A DNA stretch of 64,000 bases from NCBI GenBank assembly GCA_958296405.1, contig OY282519.1:1658132-1722131 (forward strand). The letters are read 5' to 3'. Positions 22,780 through 59,649 of this stretch are shown piece by piece; position 1 is the stretch's first letter; each line of letters opens with the position of its first letter. Below the pieces are notes generated by a model. It was not told where the DNA came from. It saw nothing but the letters and a program-made list of their open reading frames with translations, and did no database searches. The position numbers and the translations under genes were made by a program. The stretch comes from an uncultured Pseudomonadales bacterium (GTDB taxonomy: Bacteria; Pseudomonadota; Gammaproteobacteria; Pseudomonadales; Azotimanducaceae).

Positions 22780-23226
22780 ATGCCCGAAACCCCCGAATTG
22801 CGCAGCTTCATCATGCGCCAGATCCGCAGCAAGGACACGCAGCCGGAGATGGCAGTGCGGCGGCTCGTGTTTGGGCTCGGCTACCGCTATCGCCTGCACC
22901 GCAAGACGTTGCCTGGCCGCCCAGACTTGGCCTTCATCGCCCGCAAGAAGGCCATCTTCGTGAACGGCTGCTTCTGGCATGGGCACGCTTGCCGCAACGG
23001 GGAGCGTGTGCCGCGCACCAACACGAGCTATTGGGTGGAAAAGATCTCGCGCAACCGGCAGCGTGACGCCGAGAACCTGCGCGGATTGGCCGAACTCGGT
23101 TGGCAAGCGCTCACCCTGTGGGAGTGTGAGTTGAAGGATGCGGACGCGCTTCAGCGCCGCATCGTGGAGTTCTTGGGTGACCGCCGCGCCGCCACGGCGC
23201 CGGCCGGGAGGGACAGCGATGGCTGA
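22780..23226 (+). CDS. vsr: very short patch repair endonuclease (Vsr)
   Basis: The 148-residue protein has the Vsr hallmarks: MRQIRSKDTQPEMAVRRLVF, catalytic Asp in LPGRPDLAF, zinc/His-rich FVNGCFWHGHAC, then NTSYWVEKISRN and the Trp/Glu pair in LTLWECELKD. Vsr nicks at T:G mismatches formed by deamination of 5-methylcytosine and normally accompanies a Dcm-type cytosine C5 methyltransferase. None is encoded in this window, so this copy appears to be an orphan. The following gene starts inside its 3' end (8-nt overlap). Confidence 0.93.
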   Translation: MPETPELRSFIMRQIRSKDTQPEMAVRRLVFGLGYRYRLHRKTLPGRPDLAFIARKKAIFVNGCFWHGHACRNGERVPRTNTSYWVEKISRNRQRDAENLRGLAELGWQALTLWECELKDADALQRRIVEFLGDRRAATAPAGRDSDG

Positions 23227-31593: not shown

Positions 31594-32526
31594 ATGAGAA
31601 TCGTCTCCCTGCTGCCCAGCGCGACGGAAATCATTTGCAGCATCGGGCTGCGGCGGCAACTAGTGGGCGTCTCCCATGAATGTGATTTTCCCGCCTCCGT
31701 GGGGGGCTTGGCGACAGTGACGCAAACTCTGATCGACAGCGGTTTGGGCAGCGCTGAAATCGACCAACAGGTGCGCTCGCGGCTGCGCACCGAACGCGCC
31801 CTCTACTCCCTGCGCACCGAGGTGCTGGCGGAGCTGCGTCCGGACCTGATCGTCAGCCAAGCGTTATGCGACGTTTGCGCCGTGGCCAGCGCGGAGGTGG
31901 ATGCCGCGGTTAGCGCCCTGCCAAGTCCAGCGCAGGTGGTCAACTTAGAGCCGGCCTCCTTGGAGGATGTTTTCCACACCATTGCGCTGGTGGGAGCAGC
32001 GGCCGGCCGCCCCGAACAAGCACGGGCAACCGTCGCGAAATTACGGTGGCGGGTGGACGCCGTGCGCCGGCGAACCGACGCCATTCCAGAAGGCGGGCGC
32101 CCAAGAGTGGCTGTTCTGGAATGGCTGCACCCGCCGTTCAATGCCGGCCACTGGACGCCGCAATTGGTGGAGTTGGCCGGCGGTCAAGATTGCCTCGGCA
32201 ACCCCTTCACGCCCTCCACCACCATCAGTTGGCGACAGCTCGCCGACAGTCGCGCCGACGTCATCCTGGTCGCGCTATGCGGCTTCGGCGTGCAGCGCAG
32301 CCTTCAGGATCTGGCTCTGCTGCAGGACAACCCAAGTTGGCGAGCTTTGCCGGCCGTGCAAACCGGCCGGGTTTACGTCGCGGACGGCAACGCCTACTTC
32401 AGCCGCTCCGGCCCCCGCTTGGTCGATAGCCTGGAAATCTTGGCGCACGGCCTGCACCCCAGCGTCCACCCGCCTGGAGTGAAAACCCTGTTGGCGCCGC
32501 TGCACAAGTCCGCAGCGCTAGCCTGA
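31594..32526 (+). CDS. BtuF-like cobalamin-binding protein
   Basis: The 310-residue protein begins MRIVSLLPSATEIICSIGL and continues with LVGVSHECDFP, the standard opening of the BtuF/helical-backbone metal receptor group. A signal peptide is not visible, as is usual for this subgroup annotated as cobalamin-binding protein. It should bind a corrinoid; with the DUF6580-like membrane protein upstream it may form an uptake or salvage unit. No riboswitch is apparent before either gene. It ends about 160 bp before the left copy of the 254-bp repeat. Confidence 0.8.
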   Translation: MRIVSLLPSATEIICSIGLRRQLVGVSHECDFPASVGGLATVTQTLIDSGLGSAEIDQQVRSRLRTERALYSLRTEVLAELRPDLIVSQALCDVCAVASAEVDAAVSALPSPAQVVNLEPASLEDVFHTIALVGAAAGRPEQARATVAKLRWRVDAVRRRTDAIPEGGRPRVAVLEWLHPPFNAGHWTPQLVELAGGQDCLGNPFTPSTTISWRQLADSRADVILVALCGFGVQRSLQDLALLQDNPSWRALPAVQTGRVYVADGNAYFSRSGPRLVDSLEILAHGLHPSVHPPGVKTLLAPLHKSAALA

Positions 32527-32764
32527 AAAGGGCCTGAACGGGGCGCCGATCGGCGGCTGTAAGCCGGCGAGGGCAGTTTCGGCAGCGTCTTGGGCGCGGA
32601 ACCGCCGCGAAAACGGCGCAATGCCGCCGTTTCCCGCCTTCGCGCCGCCGTCCCGGCACACGGGCGCAATGGTCACGCCGCCAATCGAGTCGCCTAAGGC
32701 GAGGCATCGGGCTGGCGGGTCAGGGCGGCGAGTTAGACGCCCAATCTCTTGCCGCGAGGGGCGC

Positions 32765-32805
32765 AAAAAGAAAACCGCCGGCGTACGCAGAGCGCACGCC
32801 GGCGG
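32765..32805 (-). terminator. duplicated TonB-receptor terminator (left copy)
   Basis: CCGCCGGCG (32775-32783) pairs with CGCCGGCGG (32797-32805), extended by a T-A pair, and on the minus strand is followed by TTTTCTTTTT. This is a good rho-independent terminator duplicated from the one after the intact receptor. It now ends only a gene fragment. Confidence 0.8.
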
Positions 32806-32826
32806 TGGGAAACGAACCGGCTTGCT

Positions 32827-32938
32827 TTACAGCAGGCTCGCCCGGTAGCGCACCATGAACATGCGACCGCGGGCATCGTGCAAGATGCCGTCGAAGCCGG
32901 CGTTGTTGTTCACGGGTTCCACTTCCTGGTCGAGGGCG
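32827..32938 (-). pseudogene. 3' fragment of a TonB-dependent receptor gene
   Basis: The minus strand encodes the last 37 residues of the receptor whose intact copy is at 39470-42505, ending in VRYRASLL and a TAA stop. The fragment breaks off at 32938 at the island boundary and lacks a start codon. It is a by-product of the duplication that flanks the island. Confidence 0.9.
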
Positions 32939-33000
32939 CGAGCAGCACCGCCGCGCAACATAGCGCCCGCCATCGGACACCGCTGGCAGCCGACCTAAGG

Positions 33001-33028
33001 TTGCCCGCCGGACAACGCGCAATATAAT
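33001..33028 (+). promoter_or_regulatory. sigma70-type promoter of the island operon
   Basis: TTGCCC (33001-33006), a 16-bp spacer and a perfect TATAAT (33023-33028) lie 33 bp before the ATG of the first island gene. Transcription would start near 33035. The same arrangement persists in the decayed copy upstream, which supports its importance. Confidence 0.65.
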
Positions 33029-33060
33029 GCAGACACTTGCCGAGCTGCCCCGAGAACGCC

Positions 33061-34413
33061 ATGCAGGCTGTGCCCAAGCTGAGCATTTCCGTCGGGGCGC
33101 CCCGCTCCAAGCGATACGACCCTGAGCGGACTTACCGGTTTCGGTATCGCTCCCGGGGCCATCGGCGTCTTCCTCATGTCGTCAAGTTCTCTGGTGGACG
33201 TTCCAGCGGCATGCTGCTGTTCACGCTGCTCGAGAACGGCTTCCTGCAGCAGGAACGGGGCGATGTCGTGGTGTTCAACAACACCTCGTGTGAGCACCCC
33301 GAGACGTATAAGTTCGCGGCCGAGTGCAAGCGCATCGTTGAATCCCAGTATGGGATCCCCTTCTTCTTCGTCCAGTTCCAGTCCTATGAGGACGCTAGAC
33401 AGGGCGAGTGGAGACGCCTGCCGACCTATCGCCTTGTGAACGAGAAGCCTTGGTCCGAGGCGAACCCAGACGGATTTCGATGGCGAGGCGAGGCGTTTGA
33501 GGAACTGCTTTCTCTCAAGGCGTACTTGCCCAGCCAGTTTCGGCGCGTCTGCACGTCATCCCTCAAGCTGGAAATCACGCGACAGTTCCTCCGAGACTGG
33601 CTGGCAAGCAAGGAAAGCATTCCGCGCTTGGGCCACGGGCTCCAAGCCTCGCAGGTGGATGTGGATGAAATGCATGTCCGCCATGTCCGCAGCCGTGGCG
33701 GTGTGCCGAAGAGCATTCTGGCGGCGAAACGTGAGTACGTCCTCAGTAGGCCAACCGGCCGCCCTGAACAACGATACGGCGACTTCTCCGCTCCCGCCAG
33801 ACCTTTCGAGAACCCCGCGCTCTCCGGCAAGGTCTTTGGCCAGAAGGCTTGGTTCGGAACGGGCGGCATCGAGTATGTCGCGTTCATTGGCTTAAGGGGC
33901 GATGAGCAGCTTCGGGTGGCCAGAGTGGAAGCCCGGGCATCAGACATCCACGCCAATGCAGACTACAAGGGCGAACACGTCTATATGCCTCTGACGCAGA
34001 TGCACATTGCGCGGGAAGACGTGAACAGGTTCTGGCTGCAACAAGGTTGGGGCCTCAAACTTGCCGCCGACGGCGCTCTGTCGAACTGCGTCTATTGCTT
34101 CCTCAAGGGCGTTGGCAATCTGAAGCAAGTGCACGGCGCAATGGAGACGCGCAAGCGGCGCAAGGTGCGCGGCTTCGGCTCCACCATCGACACCCCATGC
34201 GACATCGAATGGTGGCAACGCATGGAGCGCACTTACGGGCGAGACCTCGTGCAGGAGAAGCGGGAGCGAACCAACGAGAACGCGAGCGACTTCATCGGCT
34301 TCTTCGGCGCGTCAAGCGGCTTCTCATACGAACTGTTGGCCACCAGCGCTGGCAACGGCGAGGACCTGTCTAGGTTTCAGAACACCGTGCTGCCCTGCGA
34401 TTGCACGGATTAG
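33061..34413 (+). CDS. PAPS-reductase/DndC-like PP-loop ATP pyrophosphatase
   Basis: The 450-residue protein has the PP-loop SGGRSSGM at residues 44-51, used by this superfamily to adenylate a substrate before sulfur transfer or reduction. Other marks are NNTSCEHPETYKF, Cys164 in VCTSSLK, FIGLRGDEQLRVAR, a CxxC pair near residues 343/346 in SNCVYCFLKG, and a C-terminal CDC. The cysteines could carry transferred sulfur or an Fe-S cluster, as in DndC. The cysteine desulfurase gene follows 8 nt later, a pairing that points to sulfur insertion into nucleic acid, as with DndA-DndC. At 450 residues it is longer than classical PAPS reductase (about 240). ATG 33061 is chosen over TTG 33037, which would leave almost no leader after the promoter. 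Confidence 0.85.
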   Translation: MQAVPKLSISVGAPRSKRYDPERTYRFRYRSRGHRRLPHVVKFSGGRSSGMLLFTLLENGFLQQERGDVVVFNNTSCEHPETYKFAAECKRIVESQYGIPFFFVQFQSYEDARQGEWRRLPTYRLVNEKPWSEANPDGFRWRGEAFEELLSLKAYLPSQFRRVCTSSLKLEITRQFLRDWLASKESIPRLGHGLQASQVDVDEMHVRHVRSRGGVPKSILAAKREYVLSRPTGRPEQRYGDFSAPARPFENPALSGKVFGQKAWFGTGGIEYVAFIGLRGDEQLRVARVEARASDIHANADYKGEHVYMPLTQMHIAREDVNRFWLQQGWGLKLAADGALSNCVYCFLKGVGNLKQVHGAMETRKRRKVRGFGSTIDTPCDIEWWQRMERTYGRDLVQEKRERTNENASDFIGFFGASSGFSYELLATSAGNGEDLSRFQNTVLPCDCTD

Positions 34414-34421
34414 GGCGCACT

Positions 34422-35594
34422 GTGCCGACGCTTCCGGTCTATATGGATTATCAGGCCACCACGCCGCTGGACCGCCGTGTGCATCGTGCGATGACACCGT
34501 ACTGGTCGGAGCGTTTCGGCAATCCGCACTCTGAAGGGCATCCATTTGGTTGGGAAGCCCGACGCGCCGTGGAGCATGCACGCGGCCAAGTAGCGGACCT
34601 CATCGGCGCAGACGACGAAGAGGTCGTTTTTGTGTCCGGTGCCACGGAATCCTGCAATTTGGCGATTCGGGGTGTGGCAGAGGCCGTCGCCGGCGGGCGA
34701 CGGCAGATCATCACGGTGGCAACCGAACATCCGGCGGTGCTCCGAACCGTTCAAGCACTGGGTGGCAACGGCTTCGACGTGGAAGTGCTTCCAGTGATGG
34801 GAAACGGTTTGCTCGATGTGTCGCTGTTGGAAGCGACGCTCAGCGATCATACGCTGCTGGTGTCCGTCATGCTCGTGAACAACGAGATCGGCGTTGTGCA
34901 ACCGATTCGGGAAGTCGCCGCGGCATGCCGTTCGGCAGGTGCGATCTTGCACACTGACGCCACGCAGGCGCTGAACCGCATGGAGGTTGACGTGGACGCC
35001 TTGGGGGTTGACATGCTCAGCCTCTCGGCGCACAAGGCGTATGGCCCCAATGGCATCGGTGCATTGTACGTTCGCAAACGTCCCGGGTTGGCGCTGTCGC
35101 CCCTGCTGACAGGCGGTTCGCAAGAGCGCGGGCTGCGGCCAGGCACCCTCGCCACGCCCCTCATCGTTGGGCTTGGCGAGGCGTGTGAAATTGCGGCTAG
35201 GGATTGGCTACAGGACGCCCGCATGACTCGTTGCCTGATGGATGGTCTCCGGGACAGGCTCATCAACGATGTTCCCCAACTTCGGGTGTTTGGCGATTTG
35301 GAGCAGCGTGTCCCTGGAAGCCTCTGCATCGGCGTTCCGGGGTTGCTCGCTGAGCAAGTTGTCCAGGCAGTCTCCGCCGACCTCGCCATCTCCACCGGGT
35401 CGGCCTGTGCGACAGGCTCCCCAGAGCCGTCCCATGTGTTGCTCGCTTTGGGCGTTGGCGCGGAAGTGGCGGCCAGCGGAGTGAGGGTGAGCATGGGACG
35501 CTTCACCGACGGTGAGGAGGTCGAGGTAGCCGTGCGCTCCCTGCGGTGCGCCTTTGGGCTAGCTGAACATTCGCTGGCGAAGGAGTGCGTGTGA
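34422..35594 (+). CDS. cysteine desulfurase, IscS/NifS/DndA-type
   Basis: The 390-residue PLP enzyme has LPVYMDYQATTPLD at the start, the PLP Lys205 in SAHKAYGPNGIGALYV, HTDATQ, and the catalytic Cys329 in STGSACATGSPEPSHVL, the mobile loop of class I desulfurases. It takes sulfur from cysteine as an enzyme persulfide and should hand it to the PP-loop protein encoded just upstream. No iscU, iscA or iscR is nearby, so it is unlikely to be the housekeeping Fe-S enzyme. The start GTG 34422 follows AGGG; an ATG at 34443 is too far into the conserved region. Confidence 0.92.
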   Translation: MPTLPVYMDYQATTPLDRRVHRAMTPYWSERFGNPHSEGHPFGWEARRAVEHARGQVADLIGADDEEVVFVSGATESCNLAIRGVAEAVAGGRRQIITVATEHPAVLRTVQALGGNGFDVEVLPVMGNGLLDVSLLEATLSDHTLLVSVMLVNNEIGVVQPIREVAAACRSAGAILHTDATQALNRMEVDVDALGVDMLSLSAHKAYGPNGIGALYVRKRPGLALSPLLTGGSQERGLRPGTLATPLIVGLGEACEIAARDWLQDARMTRCLMDGLRDRLINDVPQLRVFGDLEQRVPGSLCIGVPGLLAEQVVQAVSADLAISTGSACATGSPEPSHVLLALGVGAEVAASGVRVSMGRFTDGEEVEVAVRSLRCAFGLAEHSLAKECV

Positions 35595-35595
35595 C

Positions 35596-37572
35596 ATGAC
35601 CAAGCCTAAGCTCCAGTTCGGGCCTGAAGTGACGCCGACTGGCTTCGCAGCCACAGCGACCGCCCTTTTCAACGACTTGCGCCCAGCGCGCATTATCCGG
35701 GAGATCCTACAGAACTCGCTCGATGCGGCCGCGGATGCGGGTGAACGGGTTGCTCGCGTGCGGTTTCGCGTGACGATGATCGGTAACGAGGCGGTTCCCG
35801 ACGTCACCGGTTATGCCAAGGCCTTTCGTGAGGCAATCCGGTTCGGCAAGGATACGAGGGACGAGCTCTCGACTCCAGATCAGCAAATCGTAGACCAAAT
35901 CGAGGAAGCCTTAGGTAGGCTTGCAGATGACAATCACTACATGCTGTCTGTCATGGATAACGGTGTCGGTCTTGACGACAAGCGCATGACGGCGATTTTG
36001 GGAGACGGCATCAGCAGTAAATCTGGCCAGTCCGCTGGCTCTTACGGCGTCGGGCATTTCACTGCCGTGCCCACTTCGGACCTTCGGTACCTGCTCTATG
36101 GCGGAGTGCAGAGTAATGGACAAAGGATTGCGGCGGGATGCGCATTCCTCGCTTCTCGGCCAGGTAAGAGAAAGCACTTGCGAGCAGCCAAGGGCTATCT
36201 GATTAAGGACTTTGAGCCAGGACAGGCGGGCAGAGCATATGACTTCATTGACACAGCCGACATTCCGTTGGCACTAGACGACGATCTTCGCGCCGTTCGA
36301 GGAGAATGGGGCCATGGCACCGTCATCCATATTCCGGCGTTCAACTACTTCCGAGACGATGGATGGTCACTTTGGAGCATAGTGTCTAAGGTAGCCGCTT
36401 ACAACTTCGTGGTAGCGATCCAGCAGGGCACACTTGAAGTCGAAGTGGATGAGGACGCCATCTATACGGAGAGAGTCGGTGTGCAACGGCTTGACCGGCA
36501 GACCATTGAAGGCATTCTCGATGACGAAGCCCATCGACAGCGGGTTGCTCGGGGCGACAGCTTCTTTGCGGGATTGCGCCCGTCGGGACAGGCCGCCCAC
36601 TCGATCTACCAAGTTCTCGAGAGAAGCGAGCGTCATGTCGTCAAGACGGAGTTCGACGATGTGCCCATATCGCTGCTTGTGCCTTCGCCGACAGAAAGTA
36701 CCCGCGTGGACCTGTTTCGCAATGGAATGTGGATTACGGACGATCTCCGCCATTTGAGCCGTTCGGACTTCGCGGACCGCCAATCCTTCCATGCTGTGCT
36801 GATGCCCGAGCCAGGGGGTGAACTGCATCGCCTGATTCGAAAGGCGGAAGGGCCGATGCACAACGAGCTCTCTCCGAAACACCTAGACGACAATCATGAG
36901 AAAGACCAGCTGCGTGCTGGTCTAGATGCCATCCGGGACTGGCTCCGAAACCATGTCCCAGAGATCGGCACGGACGAGTACACGCCCGATGATTTCCTGT
37001 TGGTCGACACGGACGGTGGAGCGGATGGCGAGGGAAACCGCCACTTCTCCATGTACGGCTCTCCGGTCGTCGTGCAACGGGCGAACGTGAGGGAGAGGCT
37101 GTTATCGGAGGAAGGGGAACCAACGAACCACGAGGGTGGTGACGGCAAACGGCGCAAGAGACCTCGCAAGCGGCCACCAAAGAAAACGCGTGAGGGTCTA
37201 TCCCGTCCACTGCAGTTCCAGTCCACCGTTGTGCCGGCGGGTGTCGGCAGGCACATCGTCTCCTTGAGGTGTGCTGCGACAACCGCGGAAGTGTCGCTGT
37301 CGCTGCGCCTGCATGAGAACGTCGATGCGACGTGCGACCGCATCTGGCCAGACCAGATCGTCCACATTTCGGGAGTTCGCTTCCGAGGAGAGGGGCAGGG
37401 TCGTCCGAGCAATGCCGATCGGGGCCGTCACGGCGAAGAGGTCCGCATACGTGGCTTCGTGGCAGGTGAAACCTACCAAGTTGAGATTGAGCACGAGGCC
37501 GTGGAAGGGCTTGGCGGCAATGCTGCTCTACGGGTTGTTTTGCAGCGACCGCCGACATCGGAGGACACGTAG
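35596..37572 (+). CDS. GHKL-fold ATPase (MutL/Hsp90-like)
   Basis: The 658-residue protein has an N-terminal GHKL ATP site: the Mg2+-binding Asn40 in REILQNSLDAA, the G1 motif MDNGVGL near residue 121, and a glycine lid GSYGVGHFTA near 149. The middle region resembles the S5-like transducer of MutL/Hsp90 proteins, and a Lys/Arg-rich linker (KRRKRPRKRPPKK, about 515-530) precedes a beta-rich C-terminal domain. No nuclease motif is evident. Such ATPases act as conformational switches in several defence systems (for example MutL-like ATPases in MZA). AAGGAG stands 10 nt before the ATG; the previous gene ends 1 nt upstream. Confidence 0.85.
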   Translation: MTKPKLQFGPEVTPTGFAATATALFNDLRPARIIREILQNSLDAAADAGERVARVRFRVTMIGNEAVPDVTGYAKAFREAIRFGKDTRDELSTPDQQIVDQIEEALGRLADDNHYMLSVMDNGVGLDDKRMTAILGDGISSKSGQSAGSYGVGHFTAVPTSDLRYLLYGGVQSNGQRIAAGCAFLASRPGKRKHLRAAKGYLIKDFEPGQAGRAYDFIDTADIPLALDDDLRAVRGEWGHGTVIHIPAFNYFRDDGWSLWSIVSKVAAYNFVVAIQQGTLEVEVDEDAIYTERVGVQRLDRQTIEGILDDEAHRQRVARGDSFFAGLRPSGQAAHSIYQVLERSERHVVKTEFDDVPISLLVPSPTESTRVDLFRNGMWITDDLRHLSRSDFADRQSFHAVLMPEPGGELHRLIRKAEGPMHNELSPKHLDDNHEKDQLRAGLDAIRDWLRNHVPEIGTDEYTPDDFLLVDTDGGADGEGNRHFSMYGSPVVVQRANVRERLLSEEGEPTNHEGGDGKRRKRPRKRPPKKTREGLSRPLQFQSTVVPAGVGRHIVSLRCAATTAEVSLSLRLHENVDATCDRIWPDQIVHISGVRFRGEGQGRPSNADRGRHGEEVRIRGFVAGETYQVEIEHEAVEGLGGNAALRVVLQRPPTSEDT

Positions 37573-37575
37573 CAC

Positions 37576-38445
37576 GTGTCGAATGCTATCAGCGTTCGGG
37601 CTTCCGACCCGGCGTCTGCCAGCCGTGCGCTCCCTTGGCCTGTCCTTGAGGCCGGCAACATCAGCTATCCGAACGGCGTGTACTCGATCATCGTGGACTA
37701 TCGGCAGATCAAAGACCGGGGCCGCGCCTTGTCCATCAAGCATGTGGTGGAAGGTGCGCCGCTCATTGCTCGATGGACGCAGGCTGGACAGCTTCGATTC
37801 GCCTGCGCAGTGGCTGCGGCAGTCTCGGCATATCGTACGCTCATGTTCGACGGCGCCGCTGAACAAACCTTGCATTGGGATCCTGATGACATGGGATCTC
37901 ATCCAGTTTTCACGCCGATGGTGGTAGCCGCCAACGAAATCGAGCACACGGTCGTCGCCGAGAAGGATGGCCTTGACCCGCTCTGGGATGGTCATGAGCT
38001 TCGGCTTCCCAAGGGAGCGAAGGTGGCGATCGGCCCGACCTTCGCGTTGAAGTCTGGTCTGCTGGGGCTGCTCGATTTCAGCCTCGAAGATGACTTGAAG
38101 CCCGGGCAGTTCAGAGTGGACCCCAGCCACGAAGGTGGCTTCAGGTTCAAGGTACGCCTAGCCAGTGACCTGCACGGCTATCTGCGAGCGGCGAGGCACA
38201 AGGAGACAAGGGCCAACATCATGACCCACATCGTTTCTGCTGCGCTCGGCGTTTTGGCGCTGAAGTATGGGCAGGAGGACGACGGCGACGAACGGGCGTC
38301 TTATCCCAATCTTGAGGCGCTGGCGGCGCTATTGGAGGCCAACAAGCTCCCACATTGGTCCGACAACACCTTCGACCCGGCCCTCGCTGCCACCACCCTT
38401 CACCCCCATCAGTTGTCGATCGAAGATCCAACGCAGGACAGGTGA
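37576..38445 (+). CDS. uncharacterised island protein 4
   Basis: The 289-residue protein has no motif I recognise. The N-terminal half is rich in predicted beta strands (YSIIVDYRQIKDRG, APLIARWTQAG) and includes an acidic HWDPDDMGSHP. The C-terminal half is more helical, ending in a His-containing LHPHQLSIED. There is no signal peptide or membrane segment. The start is GTG 37576, 3 nt after the ATPase stop, with GGAGGA about 11 nt upstream. Tight spacing between the ATPase and the last gene suggests that the three act as one complex; this is inference from context. Confidence 0.75.
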   Translation: MSNAISVRASDPASASRALPWPVLEAGNISYPNGVYSIIVDYRQIKDRGRALSIKHVVEGAPLIARWTQAGQLRFACAVAAAVSAYRTLMFDGAAEQTLHWDPDDMGSHPVFTPMVVAANEIEHTVVAEKDGLDPLWDGHELRLPKGAKVAIGPTFALKSGLLGLLDFSLEDDLKPGQFRVDPSHEGGFRFKVRLASDLHGYLRAARHKETRANIMTHIVSAALGVLALKYGQEDDGDERASYPNLEALAALLEANKLPHWSDNTFDPALAATTLHPHQLSIEDPTQDR

Positions 38446-38452
38446 CGCCACG

Positions 38453-39340
38453 ATGACCGATTTCGCCGAGCTAGACGAGTCGGCCTACGCCCGACTGCAG
38501 AGCAACTTGATCCGAGAGAAAGGCGGCGACATGCAACGACGGTTCCTCATGGCTACGAAGAGTCGAACCGCCTTCATTGACTTCGTGAACGAACACGCCT
38601 CGGCCACCGATGGGATGCGCGCCCAAGTGTTTGAAGGTGCCTTGACCGAGCAGTCGCTGAAGGAACTGCCCAGCTCTTCAGAGCAGGCGATGCACTACGC
38701 CTGGTCCAACTTGTCACCTCGAACGGCATGTCGAACATCCTTCTGGGCCAACGTGACTTTGCAGCACATCGAATCCGGCGTCATCCAAGAGGCATGGTGG
38801 CTGGCGGCGAACGGAGGCAAGAACGAGAGTGGCGAGGAGCGCATTGACCGGGCGCTTGGACGGCTGAACAAGAGAAGGGACGGTGCCGCCAAACTAGCGG
38901 ATGACTGCGTGAGAACCGTGCTCCGGCGCATGGGCGGTCTGCCGGTGGAGCGAGGCTACAGGAGCGTTTACGTGGACTGCCCCTTCGCCCGCGCATGGTG
39001 GCGTGAGCGTCTGGTCAGGCGCGTTTTGGGCCGAGATGGAGTCGAGAGCCGACAAGCGCTGCAGGCCGTCGTTCGATCTAGCCAGACATACTGGGAGAGG
39101 CTCGTCACCATGATTGTGTCGAGAGGCTCGGTGTTCGGTTCAGTTGACGTTCAAGATGCGTTCGTCAACCGTATGGCCAAGCATTTTGAGGCCATGCCCA
39201 ATACCCGGCTCAAGAAGACCGAGACCCTCACCGTTGCCCTCAGAAGATTGAGCAACATCGCGGCCGCCCGCGAACTTGGCGTTCTGGGGTTCGAGGAGAT
39301 CGGCGCAATCGTGGACGAACTGCTCGTTCGAGTCGCTTAA
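38453..39340 (+). CDS. uncharacterised island protein 5, DUF6339-like
   Basis: The 295-residue, mostly helical protein resembles what I recall of DUF6339 (blocks such as FWANVTLQHIESG, YVDCPFARAWWRE, YWERLVTMIVSRGSVFGS and LRRLSNIAAARELGVL), a family seen in putative defence operons; the assignment is from memory. It starts at ATG 38453, 7 nt after the previous stop. Its last codons and the TAA stop (39338-39340) lie inside the right copy of the 254-bp repeat, so the natural C-terminus may have been replaced or fixed by the insertion. Confidence 0.78.
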   Translation: MTDFAELDESAYARLQSNLIREKGGDMQRRFLMATKSRTAFIDFVNEHASATDGMRAQVFEGALTEQSLKELPSSSEQAMHYAWSNLSPRTACRTSFWANVTLQHIESGVIQEAWWLAANGGKNESGEERIDRALGRLNKRRDGAAKLADDCVRTVLRRMGGLPVERGYRSVYVDCPFARAWWRERLVRRVLGRDGVESRQALQAVVRSSQTYWERLVTMIVSRGSVFGSVDVQDAFVNRMAKHFEAMPNTRLKKTETLTVALRRLSNIAAARELGVLGFEEIGAIVDELLVRVA

Positions 39341-39581
39341 GGCGAGGCATCGGGCTGGCGGGTCAGGGCGGCGAGTTAGACGCCCAATCTCTTGCCGCGA
39401 GGGGCGCAAAAAGAAAACCGCCGGCGCACGCAGAGCGCCCGCCGGCGGTGGGAAACGAACCGGCTTGCTTTACAGCAGGCTCGCCCGGTAGCGCACCATG
39501 AACATGCGGCCGCGGGCATCGTGCAAGATGCCGTCGAAGCCGGCGTTGTTGTTCACGGGTTCCACTTCTTGGTCGAGGACG
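39328..39581. repeat. right copy of the 254-bp direct repeat flanking the island
   Basis: Gapless match to 32685-32938 (offset 6,643 bp, six mismatches). It holds the end of island gene 5, a spacer, the terminator and the 3' end of the intact TonB receptor gene. Recombination between the two copies would excise a circle of about 6.6 kb and restore a single receptor 3' end. Confidence 0.95.
39408..39448 (-). terminator. terminator of the large TonB receptor gene
   Basis: CCGCCGGCG (39418-39426) pairs with CGCCGGCGG (39440-39448). Read on the minus strand the stem is followed by TTTTCTTTTT, 22 bp after the receptor stop codon. It is convergent with the island operon and might also stop island transcripts on the + strand, although no U-run exists in that direction. 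Confidence 0.85.
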
Positions 39582-57742: not shown

Positions 57743-58588
57743 CTAGCCAATCGTCAGCAGCGTCTCCTGCGACAGCTTGCCCTCTAGTTGCGCAACTATT
57801 CTCTCTAGCTCCATCTTCGGCTCCGCCTTGAGCCCCAAGCAGCGGCCGACGCCGGCCGCATCGGTGCTGTACCTCGAAGCTAGCTTGATCGAGTGCATGG
57901 CGTCTCGCGGTTCTAAGGCATAGGTGTGGAACTGCATCGAGTGGCTGGACCTGGCTTGGGCCACATGGTTGAACTCGAAGTTGCGCCGCAGATAGTCGAA
58001 AAGCTCGGTTTGCGTCACCAGAACTAAACGTTTGCCCAATGCCTCGAACGTCTGAATCTTGTGGTGTAGCTGTACCAGAGTCGTCTTGGCCGTCATCTTC
58101 CAATTCATTCCGAAACGCGAGCCATAGGGCTCCCGTTCTTCCGCGACGGAATCGGGTTGGCGAACCGTGTCCAAGAACCGTTGCCGAGCGGGCCAGACGG
58201 AACCGGTCGTGTCCATCGTCTGGAGTTCGATTCCGAGAAAGTCAACGACTTTGCTGCCGTCTACGGCGGTCAAGAAGTAGTCGACGCTTCCACCCGGCAC
58301 GGAGACCTCTGGCACGACGTGCAGTTCGTTACCCGGTGTGTGAGAAAGCAGATGCAAACAATCGACGAATACCTGCTTGCGTTCGAGCAGGCGATATGGG
58401 CAGATCATCATCGGTTGGCGACTGCGCCCGTGGGAGACCGAACATGTGCCGATTGACAACTTCGGTTCGCTCTTCCTTACTTTGATGCACTTGCGCTGTA
58501 GGAACGGGCACTGCTGTTGATCTAGGAGCGCTTGCCAGTCGGCGGTCGTCGAGGTCGATGCGCCGAACAGTTCGAGAATTTCAGTCAT
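57743..58588 (-). CDS. NotI-family type II restriction endonuclease
   Basis: The 281-residue protein matches the unusual cysteine pattern of NotI: CPFLQRKC, IGTCSV and ICPYRLLER in the first 70 residues (the four cysteines bind iron in NotI). It also has the catalytic-region phrase FLGIELQTMDTTGSVWP near residue 120, where NotI has LEIQTMDFHGS. It should cut DNA at a specific site in the absence of methylation. Its ATG overlaps the methyltransferase stop by 4 nt, so the protective enzyme is translated first. The recognition sequence is not predictable; it need not be that of NotI. Confidence 0.85.
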   Translation of the reverse strand: MTEILELFGASTSTTADWQALLDQQQCPFLQRKCIKVRKSEPKLSIGTCSVSHGRSRQPMMICPYRLLERKQVFVDCLHLLSHTPGNELHVVPEVSVPGGSVDYFLTAVDGSKVVDFLGIELQTMDTTGSVWPARQRFLDTVRQPDSVAEEREPYGSRFGMNWKMTAKTTLVQLHHKIQTFEALGKRLVLVTQTELFDYLRRNFEFNHVAQARSSHSMQFHTYALEPRDAMHSIKLASRYSTDAAGVGRCLGLKAEPKMELERIVAQLEGKLSQETLLTIG

Positions 58589-59649
58589 AGGATCGTGGCG
58601 GTGCGTTGATCGGCCATCTTGATGTATTCGGGCGAGAGGTCAATGCCTACCGACTTTCGGCCTAGCTGGCTGGCCACCAGCATGGTCGTGCCGGTGCCGC
58701 AGAACGGATCGAGGACGATCCCATCGGGTGGTGACGTGGCCAAGATTGGGATTCGGCACAAGTCTTCCGGAAAGGGCGCAAAGTGTCCGCGACGACGCTG
58801 CGTGTCTTCTGGCAGGATGTCCCACACATCGGAGGGCTTGCTGCCGTTGGGATGGTACTTCAAGAAGTAGAAGCCCTTGTCGCGCAGTTCTTTTGCCCGC
58901 CCCGACAGCCTCTCGGAGTCCGAGTGCGTCGCCCGCTGCTGGCCTCGGATGATCATGCGGAAATCGGCTAGTTCACCTCGGTTGATCGCATCGAGCATGC
59001 CTTCCAGCATCGTGTTTGCGTTGCGCTTTTCGGCTGCATCGAGTTCGGTGGAGAGTTCAATCTGGCGCTTGTAGCGCACGCCGCTGACACCAGATGCGGT
59101 GACCACCGAACCGTTGACCACCTTGGTGGTCTTGGGTGCGCTTCGGATGGCGTCCGCGTTGTAGTAGTAGCCGCGTTGACGTTTCACGAAATGGAATACG
59201 CTCTCGTGGACATTGCGCAGGCGATCCCGCGTATTGTCAGGACTTCCCTTGACTTTGTTCCAAACGACGTCGTTGCGCAGTGTCCAGCCTTGCTTGTCGA
59301 CAAGGTGCAGGGCCACCCGCCACGGAACGCCGACCAAGCCCTTCTGCTTGTATGTGTCGCCGATATTGAGCCAAAACGAGCCGGTAGGCTTGAGGACTCG
59401 CTTCACCTCAGCGAACACGGCGGCTATGGCTTCGATGAATTCGCGGTAGTCCTTCTCTAGGCCGATGCCACCGCTGCCATATTCTCGCTTGCCCCAATAG
59501 GGCGGGCTGGTCATGCAACAGTCGAATGTGGCAGCGGGCAGCCGCCCTAGCACGTCCAAGGCATCGCCCGCTATGAACAACGGCGACCGGCGCGGTTCGC
59601 GCAGATAACTCTGCAACCGGAGCGGCGTCCCTTGGGGCGTGGCGATCAT
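58585..59649 (-). CDS. type II DNA methyltransferase (N4-cytosine or N6-adenine)
   Basis: The 354-residue enzyme has catalytic motif IV TSPPYW at residues 47-52 and the SAM motif DPFCGTGTT near residue 318, the reversed (beta-class) order. SPPY with preceding Thr is most common in N4-cytosine enzymes. It should protect the sites cut by the NotI-family nuclease encoded directly downstream. The insertion between the two motifs (about 180-290), containing RYKRQIELSTELDAAEKRNANT, is likely the target-recognition domain. The pair lies between lipA and a TonB receptor gene. Confidence 0.92.
   Translation of the reverse strand: MIATPQGTPLRLQSYLREPRRSPLFIAGDALDVLGRLPAATFDCCMTSPPYWGKREYGSGGIGLEKDYREFIEAIAAVFAEVKRVLKPTGSFWLNIGDTYKQKGLVGVPWRVALHLVDKQGWTLRNDVVWNKVKGSPDNTRDRLRNVHESVFHFVKRQRGYYYNADAIRSAPKTTKVVNGSVVTASGVSGVRYKRQIELSTELDAAEKRNANTMLEGMLDAINRGELADFRMIIRGQQRATHSDSERLSGRAKELRDKGFYFLKYHPNGSKPSDVWDILPEDTQRRRGHFAPFPEDLCRIPILATSPPDGIVLDPFCGTGTTMLVASQLGRKSVGIDLSPEYIKMADQRTATIL

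Follow-up and report, generated by a model that had tools for sequence, protein, structure and literature searches.

The 64,000-nucleotide stretch analysed here (the window; contig OY282519.1, positions 1,658,132 to 1,722,131, of an uncultured Pseudomonadales bacterium of the Azotimanducaceae) contains a block of five genes, g1 to g5, which may encode a sulfur-based DNA modification and defence system. All five lie on the + strand between positions 33037 and 39340 and are separated by 8, 1, 3 and 7 nucleotides, which confirms the compact operon described in an earlier note on this DNA. The left bound given there, 32938, is the end of a 254-nucleotide repeat and not the start of a gene. The start codons are TTG for g1 (with an in-frame ATG at 33061) and GTG for both g2 and g4. 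The operon looks like an island because it is flanked by two direct repeats (98% identical over 254 nucleotides, both recovered by a genome search, and duplicating the 3' end of the TonB-receptor gene on its right) and has a lower guanine-cytosine (GC) content (0.59-0.64 versus 0.60-0.70 elsewhere in the window, in 2-kb windows) and a lower third-position GC (0.65-0.76 for its five open reading frames (ORFs) versus mostly 0.75-0.9 for other ORFs). No integrase gene was noticed inside the repeat-framed island. One g1 match is present in the source genome, which consists of one contig of 3.83 Mb. In a genome of the same genus (G008, locus L106) the TonB-receptor flank is 91.5% identical and the 6.6 kb up to the next shared gene is a different sequence; the site is therefore variable.

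Table 1 Coordinates of the operon, its flanking repeats and a small protein found in related loci.
Sequence	Positions	Strand	Feature	Remarks
Window	32685..32938		Left copy of 254-nucleotide direct repeat	Duplicated TonB-receptor gene 3' end and downstream sequence; left edge of island
Window	33037..34413	+	g1, PP-loop sulfur-transfer protein	phrog_424 'PAPS reductase' family; SspD-like
Window	34422..35594	+	g2, class I cysteine desulfurase	SspA/DndA/IscS-like
Window	35596..37572	+	g3, GHKL ATPase	PDC-M33A family; MORC/paraMORC-like
Window	37576..38445	+	g4, protein of PDC-M33B family	
Window	38453..39340	+	g5, DUF6339-like protein	PDC-M33C position
Window	39328..39581		Right copy of 254-nucleotide direct repeat	Contains g5 stop codon and TonB-receptor gene 3' end
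L062	8632-8862		~60-77-residue protein	
L108	5744-5974		~60-77-residue protein	
L109	5742-5975		~60-77-residue protein	
L110	5669-5896		~60-77-residue protein	
L111	5749-5937		~60-77-residue protein	

The five proteins were compared with the family profiles of Pfam, NCBIfam and PADLOC with E-values of up to 1 requested, in searches whose filters remove many weak matches. The g1 protein matches the phage family phrog_424, 'phosphoadenosine phosphosulfate reductase' (PAPS reductase; 1e-27), and its best PADLOC match is SspD (E = 9.5e-9), with a best stretch of only 40 residues. The match to Pfam PAPS_reduct is sub-threshold (E = 0.021) and those to the NCBIfam PRK13795 models (best 2e-4) are far under the cut-offs. 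No DndC model in PADLOC or NCBIfam matched g1, and the DndC-like identity initially given to it was not borne out. Apart from PAPS_reduct, no tRNA-thiolation or sulfate family (TtcA/MnmA/ThiI, CysH) was named among the Pfam and NCBIfam matches of g1. The residues S52-G53-G54, S56-S57, C172, C351-x-x-C354 and C454-x-C456 are invariant in all 13 aligned sequences, a pattern of three cluster-like cysteines and a C-terminal CxC dyad; a distant viral homologue (L075) lacks the last cysteine and a truncated fusion protein (L039) does not display every one. The cysteine count matches that of DndC as described in the available part of PMC10853773, where a cluster is held by three cysteines and a separate cysteine dyad is thought to carry the sulfur. 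The g2 protein belongs to Aminotran_5 (1.8e-79), and its best PADLOC matches are SspA (460 bits) and then DndA (454 bits); it is also a good IscS-type protein in NCBIfam.

The remaining three proteins, referred to as the trio, are relatives of the PADLOC candidate system PDC-M33, for which models A, B and C exist. The g3 protein matches PDC-M33A (3.9e-35) and, under the cut-off, HATPase_c (7.5e-4), and its GHKL motifs (R35-E36, Q39-N40, D43-A44, D121, G125, G148, G151 and G153) are invariant in 14 aligned sequences. The g4 protein matches PDC-M33B (4.2e-4), while g5 matches DUF6339 below the Pfam cut-off (6.6e-4; 19.9 bits versus 23.2). PDC-M33C is unmatched by the g5 of the window and weakly matched by the g5 homologue at L031 (0.0081). 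No nuclease family was detected in g3-g5 with Pfam, PADLOC or NCBIfam. Searches of the PDB gave no relatives of g1, g3 or g5 at the thresholds used, and chance-level matches only for g4.

Searches with g1 revealed 17 bacterial loci besides the window, and trio genes (g3, g4 or g5) adjoin g1 in 12 of them, including one from another phylum (L002, L025, L026, L027, L029, L031, L032, L033, L034, L035, L036 and L073). L002, from Candidatus Binatia, has the same g1-g5 order with g5 split into two ORFs, and L025, L026 and L027 are from the same genus as the window, the g2 of L025 being split into two ORFs. L028 is a decayed remnant with pieces of g1 and g5. The four loci without a trio are L003 (Poribacteria), where g1 and g2 are followed by a nuclease-like gene, L037 and L038 (both in genome G103), where a solo g1 lies near VapE-like and portal genes, and L039, where the contig stops immediately behind g1. 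Searching with the g3 family added one more locus, L030. Contig ends cut L029, L030, L034, L035, L036 and L039, the flanks of L031 are short, and no g5 was detected in the cut L035. The g2 gene is absent from L032, L073 and L029, as DndA is from many Dnd loci according to part of PMC10853773. Gene order also varies, being g3-g4-g5-g1-g2 in L033 and g3-g4-g5-g1 in L073. One candidate member of the g1 family, from genome G164 (E = 2.9e-4), a 588-residue protein with a different PP-loop motif, was dropped and is excluded from the counts.

The identity matrices of g1, g3, g4 and g5 are correlated in all six pairs (r = 0.966-0.990; 8-9 loci, including three close same-genus copies), and in none of the pairs did any of 2000 permutations reach the observed value. 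The window is 68, 65, 44 and 47% identical to the Binatia copy in g1, g2, g3 and g4, compared with 53, 55-57, 35-37 and 34-36% to the same-genus copies, a pattern consistent with the genes having moved together from one phylum to another. Comparison of L026 with L027 gave nonsynonymous divergence (dN) of 0.06-0.07 and synonymous divergence (dS) of 0.39-0.70 across the five genes, with dN/dS about 0.10-0.16, and these same-genus copies are under purifying selection. The recurrence of the genes, with co-varying sequences and low dN/dS, makes the block more than a chance assembly. The system looks rare and patchy in the samples searched: g1 matches were found in 4 of 57 other near relatives, in 5 of the 273 other genomes sampled from the class and in 2 of 243 from the order, and none was found at E = 1e-15 with the g1 alignment in 348 other genomes of the phylum, for many of which only the first 4 candidates were scored. 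The plasmid collection contained no match to the g1 of the window or of L033. A scan of viral sequences with g1 alignment A1 found none, and with alignment A4 nothing close, the one distant match being a solo PP-loop protein at 29%.

Searches with the g3 family identified ten core trio loci that lack g1, from three of ten matched other genomes, three of 17 plasmid records and four of five added records. The remaining seven of the ten matched genomes carry more distant GHKL loci (L054-L060), which were kept out of the core counts because the middle gene has no match to g4 (hhalign E = 0.18) and the third bears only a weak resemblance to g5 (E = 1.5e-4, probability 51). A C5-cytosine methylase is encoded nearby in eight of the ten core loci, directly adjoining g3 in L051 and L053, at a distance of about 5 kb in L052, and 0.4-3.3 kb away in L062 and L108-L111, the methylases of the last four being taken from the record annotations. 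In L053 the g3 match crosses a stop close to where it starts. L061 and L063, the remaining two, have an HsdM-like gene instead. A Vsr gene is present in five of these loci (L051, L052, L108, L109 and L110), and annotated restriction endonucleases lie near several. By contrast, four C5 methylase queries (phmmer) found no such gene in nine loci with g1 and trio (the window, L002, L025, L026, L027, L031, L032, L033 and L073), nor did the four C5 queries in six cut or decayed g1 loci. The difference between none of nine and eight of ten gives a Fisher p of 7e-4, for loci that are non-independent and sets that come from different searches. The simplest reading of this pattern is that g1, with or without g2, fills the modification slot of a methylase. 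In five of the C5-methylase-linked trios a conserved protein of ~60-77 residues is encoded upstream of the GHKL gene (Table 1) and is possibly a fourth component.

Locus L039 (1586-3580), in genome G282, encodes a natural in-frame fusion of a C5-cytosine methylase and a g1-type PP-loop domain, cut by the contig end, and this fusion points to DNA as the substrate. It is one of the observations that make it very improbable that g1 and g2 are an ordinary pair for sulfur metabolism or tRNA thiolation, placed by chance beside a restriction-modification-like trio. The weak PAPS_reduct match of g1 and the IscS-type character of g2 would be expected of such a pair; against it are the lack of a tRNA-thiolation family match in g1, with PAPS_reduct only under its cut-off, the trio genes beside most other bacterial g1 loci, the methylase fusion and the phosphorothioation-linked neighbours described below.

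Behind the block in three genomes of the same genus (G002, G006 and G007) come genes for a TIGR04096 'DNA phosphorothioation-associated putative methyltransferase' (8.7e-170), a sigma-70 region 4 protein (9e-10), a PbeA homologue (9.8e-149; TIGR04095 at 313 bits, where the cut-off is 600) and a homologue of PbeC (1.2e-41 in G002 and 1.3e-46 in G006); the profile scans are of the G002 copy, with PbeC also in G006, and the same layout was read in G007. Genes for DUF262-type GmrSD_N proteins are found downstream of g2 in L003, L031 and L033, and the operon of the window has none. By eye only, these proteins have a C-terminal HNH-like motif, and P-x-F-Q and DGQQR are present in all three. SspE and DndI are likewise built from a DUF262 domain and an HNH domain (PMC11662687). 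The Poribacteria genome that carries L003 gave no match to the g3 family or to DndD; g1 and g2 can thus occur without the trio.

Three phage proteins annotated as PAPS reductases match the g1 profile, namely gp58 of Klebsiella phage KPN N137, gp64 of Salmonella phage 37 and a protein of Roseobacter phage CRP-821. All three share with g1 its PP-loop as well as a C-(T/S)-x-x-x-K motif. CxxC is present in the Salmonella and Roseobacter phage proteins and not in the 249-residue Klebsiella phage protein, and all three have further cysteines at their ends. The Klebsiella phage gene (L112) is one gene away from an annotated C-specific methylase (a weak C5 match, 2.1e-6) and the Salmonella phage gene (L113) is equally close to an annotated DNA methylase, which no C5 query matched, and a nucleoside 2-deoxyribosyltransferase is encoded near both. 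Neither a trio nor a desulfurase is annotated beside the phage genes in the stretches read. PHROGs classes phrog_424 with moron and auxiliary metabolic genes; the above suggests that some phage 'PAPS reductases' may modify DNA rather than feed sulfur metabolism.

Together the sequence comparisons favour, with a little less than even confidence, a mobile sulfur-based DNA modification and defence system in which g1 and g2 would be the writer and g3-g5 a partner that excludes unmarked DNA. The likeliest division of labour has g1 and g2 marking DNA with sulfur, where a methylase would otherwise provide the mark, and g3-g5 serving as their MORC-like partner. Desulfurases supply sulfur, PP-loop enzymes activate with ATP, and ATPases of the GHKL type form dimers that close around DNA or protein. 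In the proposed mechanism g2 would draw sulfur from cysteine, and g1 would activate its target with ATP and use its conserved cysteines to hand the sulfur on to the DNA of the cell itself, most probably as a backbone phosphorothioate. The two proteins would thereby occupy the position that a C5-cytosine methylase fills in the sister systems. The trio would act as a MORC-like GHKL ATPase clamp with two companions, which would sense the presence or absence of the mark and exclude unmarked DNA; clamping, or recruitment of other nucleases, is likelier than direct cutting because no nuclease family was found in g3-g5. At some loci the DUF262 nuclease-like protein and the Pbe genes may be optional effectors. 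MORC and paraMORC proteins in restriction-modification operons have been proposed to loop DNA (PMC2292703, available part).

Alternatively, all five genes could be the writer. The g3 protein would then be a third, GHKL kind of scanning ATPase, replacing the ABC-type DndD or the ORC/Cdc6-type SspC, and g4 and g5 would be DNA-recognising subunits replacing DndE or SspB. The restriction arm would be a separate unit (Pbe or a DUF262 nuclease) or, as in the window, absent. This arrangement is conceivable, if doubtful, and is ranked second because four g1 loci have no trio, one of them truncated and two close to phage genes, and because C5 methylases, near which the trio is found, need no guide. The g1-g2 pair with a nuclease-like gene in Poribacteria, in a genome lacking a g3-family match, the fusion of g1 to a methylase, and the annotated restriction endonucleases near the trio also argue against it. 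The tight co-variation of g1 with g3-g5 and the lack of a nuclease family in the latter, however, are what a five-gene writer would predict. The known writers, as PMC12707154 describes them, likewise combine a desulfurase and a PAPS-reductase-like protein with an ATPase and a protein that recognises DNA, and are joined by the restriction branches dndFGH, sspE (DUF262-DUF1524) or pbeABCD, of which the block adjoins two of the three kinds. A DndD-DndE core also pairs with cytosine methylases elsewhere (PMC10853773, in the part available).

Several observations weigh against a two-gene writer with a separate excluding partner. C5 methylase and g1 are not strictly exclusive, being fused in L039 and about 4 kb apart in the viral L075. 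The counts are of loci and not of independent events, and because the loci are related the correlations and the Fisher value overstate independence. The absence of g3 at L003 is a single case, from a metagenome-assembled genome of unstated completeness. No known DNA-binding domain was found in g3-g5 by the profile searches, and the models that AlphaFold gave for g4 and g5, from alignments of 2 and 3 rows, are too poor to use (mean predicted local distance difference test (pLDDT) scores of 39.7 and 46.2). Pbe genes are not confined to phosphorothioation loci: the available part of PMC6459918 gives dndCD within 10 kb for 233 of 553 PbeAC, and a methyltransferase within 10 kb for 155 of 320 PbeAC without dndCD. 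In all three g1-linked DUF262 proteins, Phe replaces the Tyr of P-x-Y-Q, the phosphorothioate-sensing motif of SspE and DndI (PMC11662687, in part), and DUF262 proteins of other systems read modified bases (PMC12137116). Both observations on DUF262 proteins, like the many PbeAC without dndCD, count against phosphorothioate as the mark.

The two DUF262 points bear on a variant of the same architecture in which a base, cytosine for instance, would be thiolated in place of the phosphorothioate in the backbone. The fusion of g1 with a C5-cytosine methylase, and the annotated methylases and nucleoside 2-deoxyribosyltransferase near the phage relatives, would suit a thiolated base. Other PP-loop enzymes thiolate the bases of tRNA. 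We consider a thiolated base unlikely, given that the best PADLOC match of g1 is SspD, that its three cysteines and dyad are as described for DndC and that Pbe and TIGR04096 genes are among the neighbours.

The g1-g5 block resembles several known systems and differs from each. Like the Dnd and Ssp systems (DndABCDE, SspABCD; SspE, DndI, PbeABCD), it has a desulfurase and a PP-loop protein, with DUF262 or Pbe neighbours in its relatives, but it has a GHKL ATPase instead of an ABC or ORC/Cdc6 ATPase. DndD (TIGR03185) had no match in the genome of the window, and was over the cut-off in one of 11 genomes, G002, on a separate contig. DndE, SspB and SspC were unmatched by the five operon proteins, to which that search was directed. 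The block shares the GHKL motifs of g3 with MORC and paraMORC proteins; unlike the MORC/paraMORC restriction-modification operon, that of the window has no DNA methylase, Vsr, helicase or nuclease gene. As in BREX type 4, a PAPS-reductase-like protein (the g1 match to BrxP is 5.1e-4) stands in for a methylase, but none of the five proteins matches a PglZ, BrxL or BrxC model. From PDC-M33, to which g3-g5 are related, the block differs in its putative sulfur writer, since the ten core trios without g1 lie near DNA methylases; PDC-M33 and DUF6339 are unnamed in the open-licence literature searched, where other PDC-M candidates do appear.

The view in the earlier note that the island matches no defence system therefore holds for the combination of genes and fails for g3-g5, which are relatives of PDC-M33. 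The families that it listed as missing (DndB, DndD, DndE, the Ssp nickases, PglZ, BrxL, Z1 and AIPR) were indeed unmatched by the five proteins, DndD being the one sought genome-wide. The neighbourhood survey upheld the expectation that the genes travel together, and the Poribacteria locus and the methylase-linked trios agree with the division proposed there into two separable genes and a three-gene module. The note had left open DNA or RNA as the substrate; the methylase fusion and phosphorothioation-linked neighbours make DNA likelier than tRNA, and the ordinary tRNA or sulfate pair that it had named as a refutation was examined by sequence and not encountered. Its interpretation as a modification-restriction system gains from the co-occurrence and the methylase-linked module. 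Gene content, conservation, co-occurrence and the exchange of a methylase for g1 are seen in the sequences themselves, whereas a sulfur mark on DNA, its chemical nature and the part played by g3-g5 are inferred.

The titles and abstract openings found in the open-licence literature describe no such combination of genes. The novelty would lie in a scaffold of the GHKL type, where the known sulfur-based modification systems have that of Dnd or Ssp, and the cassette suggests a third way for bacteria to sulfur-mark their own DNA. If so, DNA sulfur marking would not be bound to the two known scaffolds, there would be a simple two-gene route to sulfur-marked DNA, and this two-gene writer could replace a methylase in a GHKL-type restriction system. 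The PDC-M33/DUF6339 trio would gain a role, one would have to ask if DNA can be excluded by a MORC-like ATPase that does not cut it, and some phage 'PAPS reductases' would act on DNA. A bolder version, in which a PP-loop enzyme of the phage 'PAPS reductase' family and a desulfurase form a third, minimal class of DNA-sulfur writer without a Dnd/Ssp scaffold and a nuclease-free MORC-like GHKL complex excludes unmarked DNA by clamping, is doubtful to unlikely; by extension, some phage 'PAPS reductases' at present classed with sulfur metabolism would be DNA-marking enzymes that let phages pass such systems.

Other features were noted around the operon. A BtuF-like binding-protein gene lies near the island in the window (31594-32526) and in the Binatia locus (L002, 17623-18531), the two being 46% identical; it was set aside as a part of the system, being near none of nine other loci tested. 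A Vsr mismatch endonuclease (PF03852, 2e-29) is encoded at 22780-23226 (+), and the four phmmer queries detected no C5 methylase in the window. An N6/N4 DNA methylase (PF01555, 1.2e-50) is encoded at 57743-59649 (-), 18 kb from the island. It adjoins a 281-residue ORF without a Pfam match, which looks NotI-like, and the two are a possible type II restriction-modification pair.

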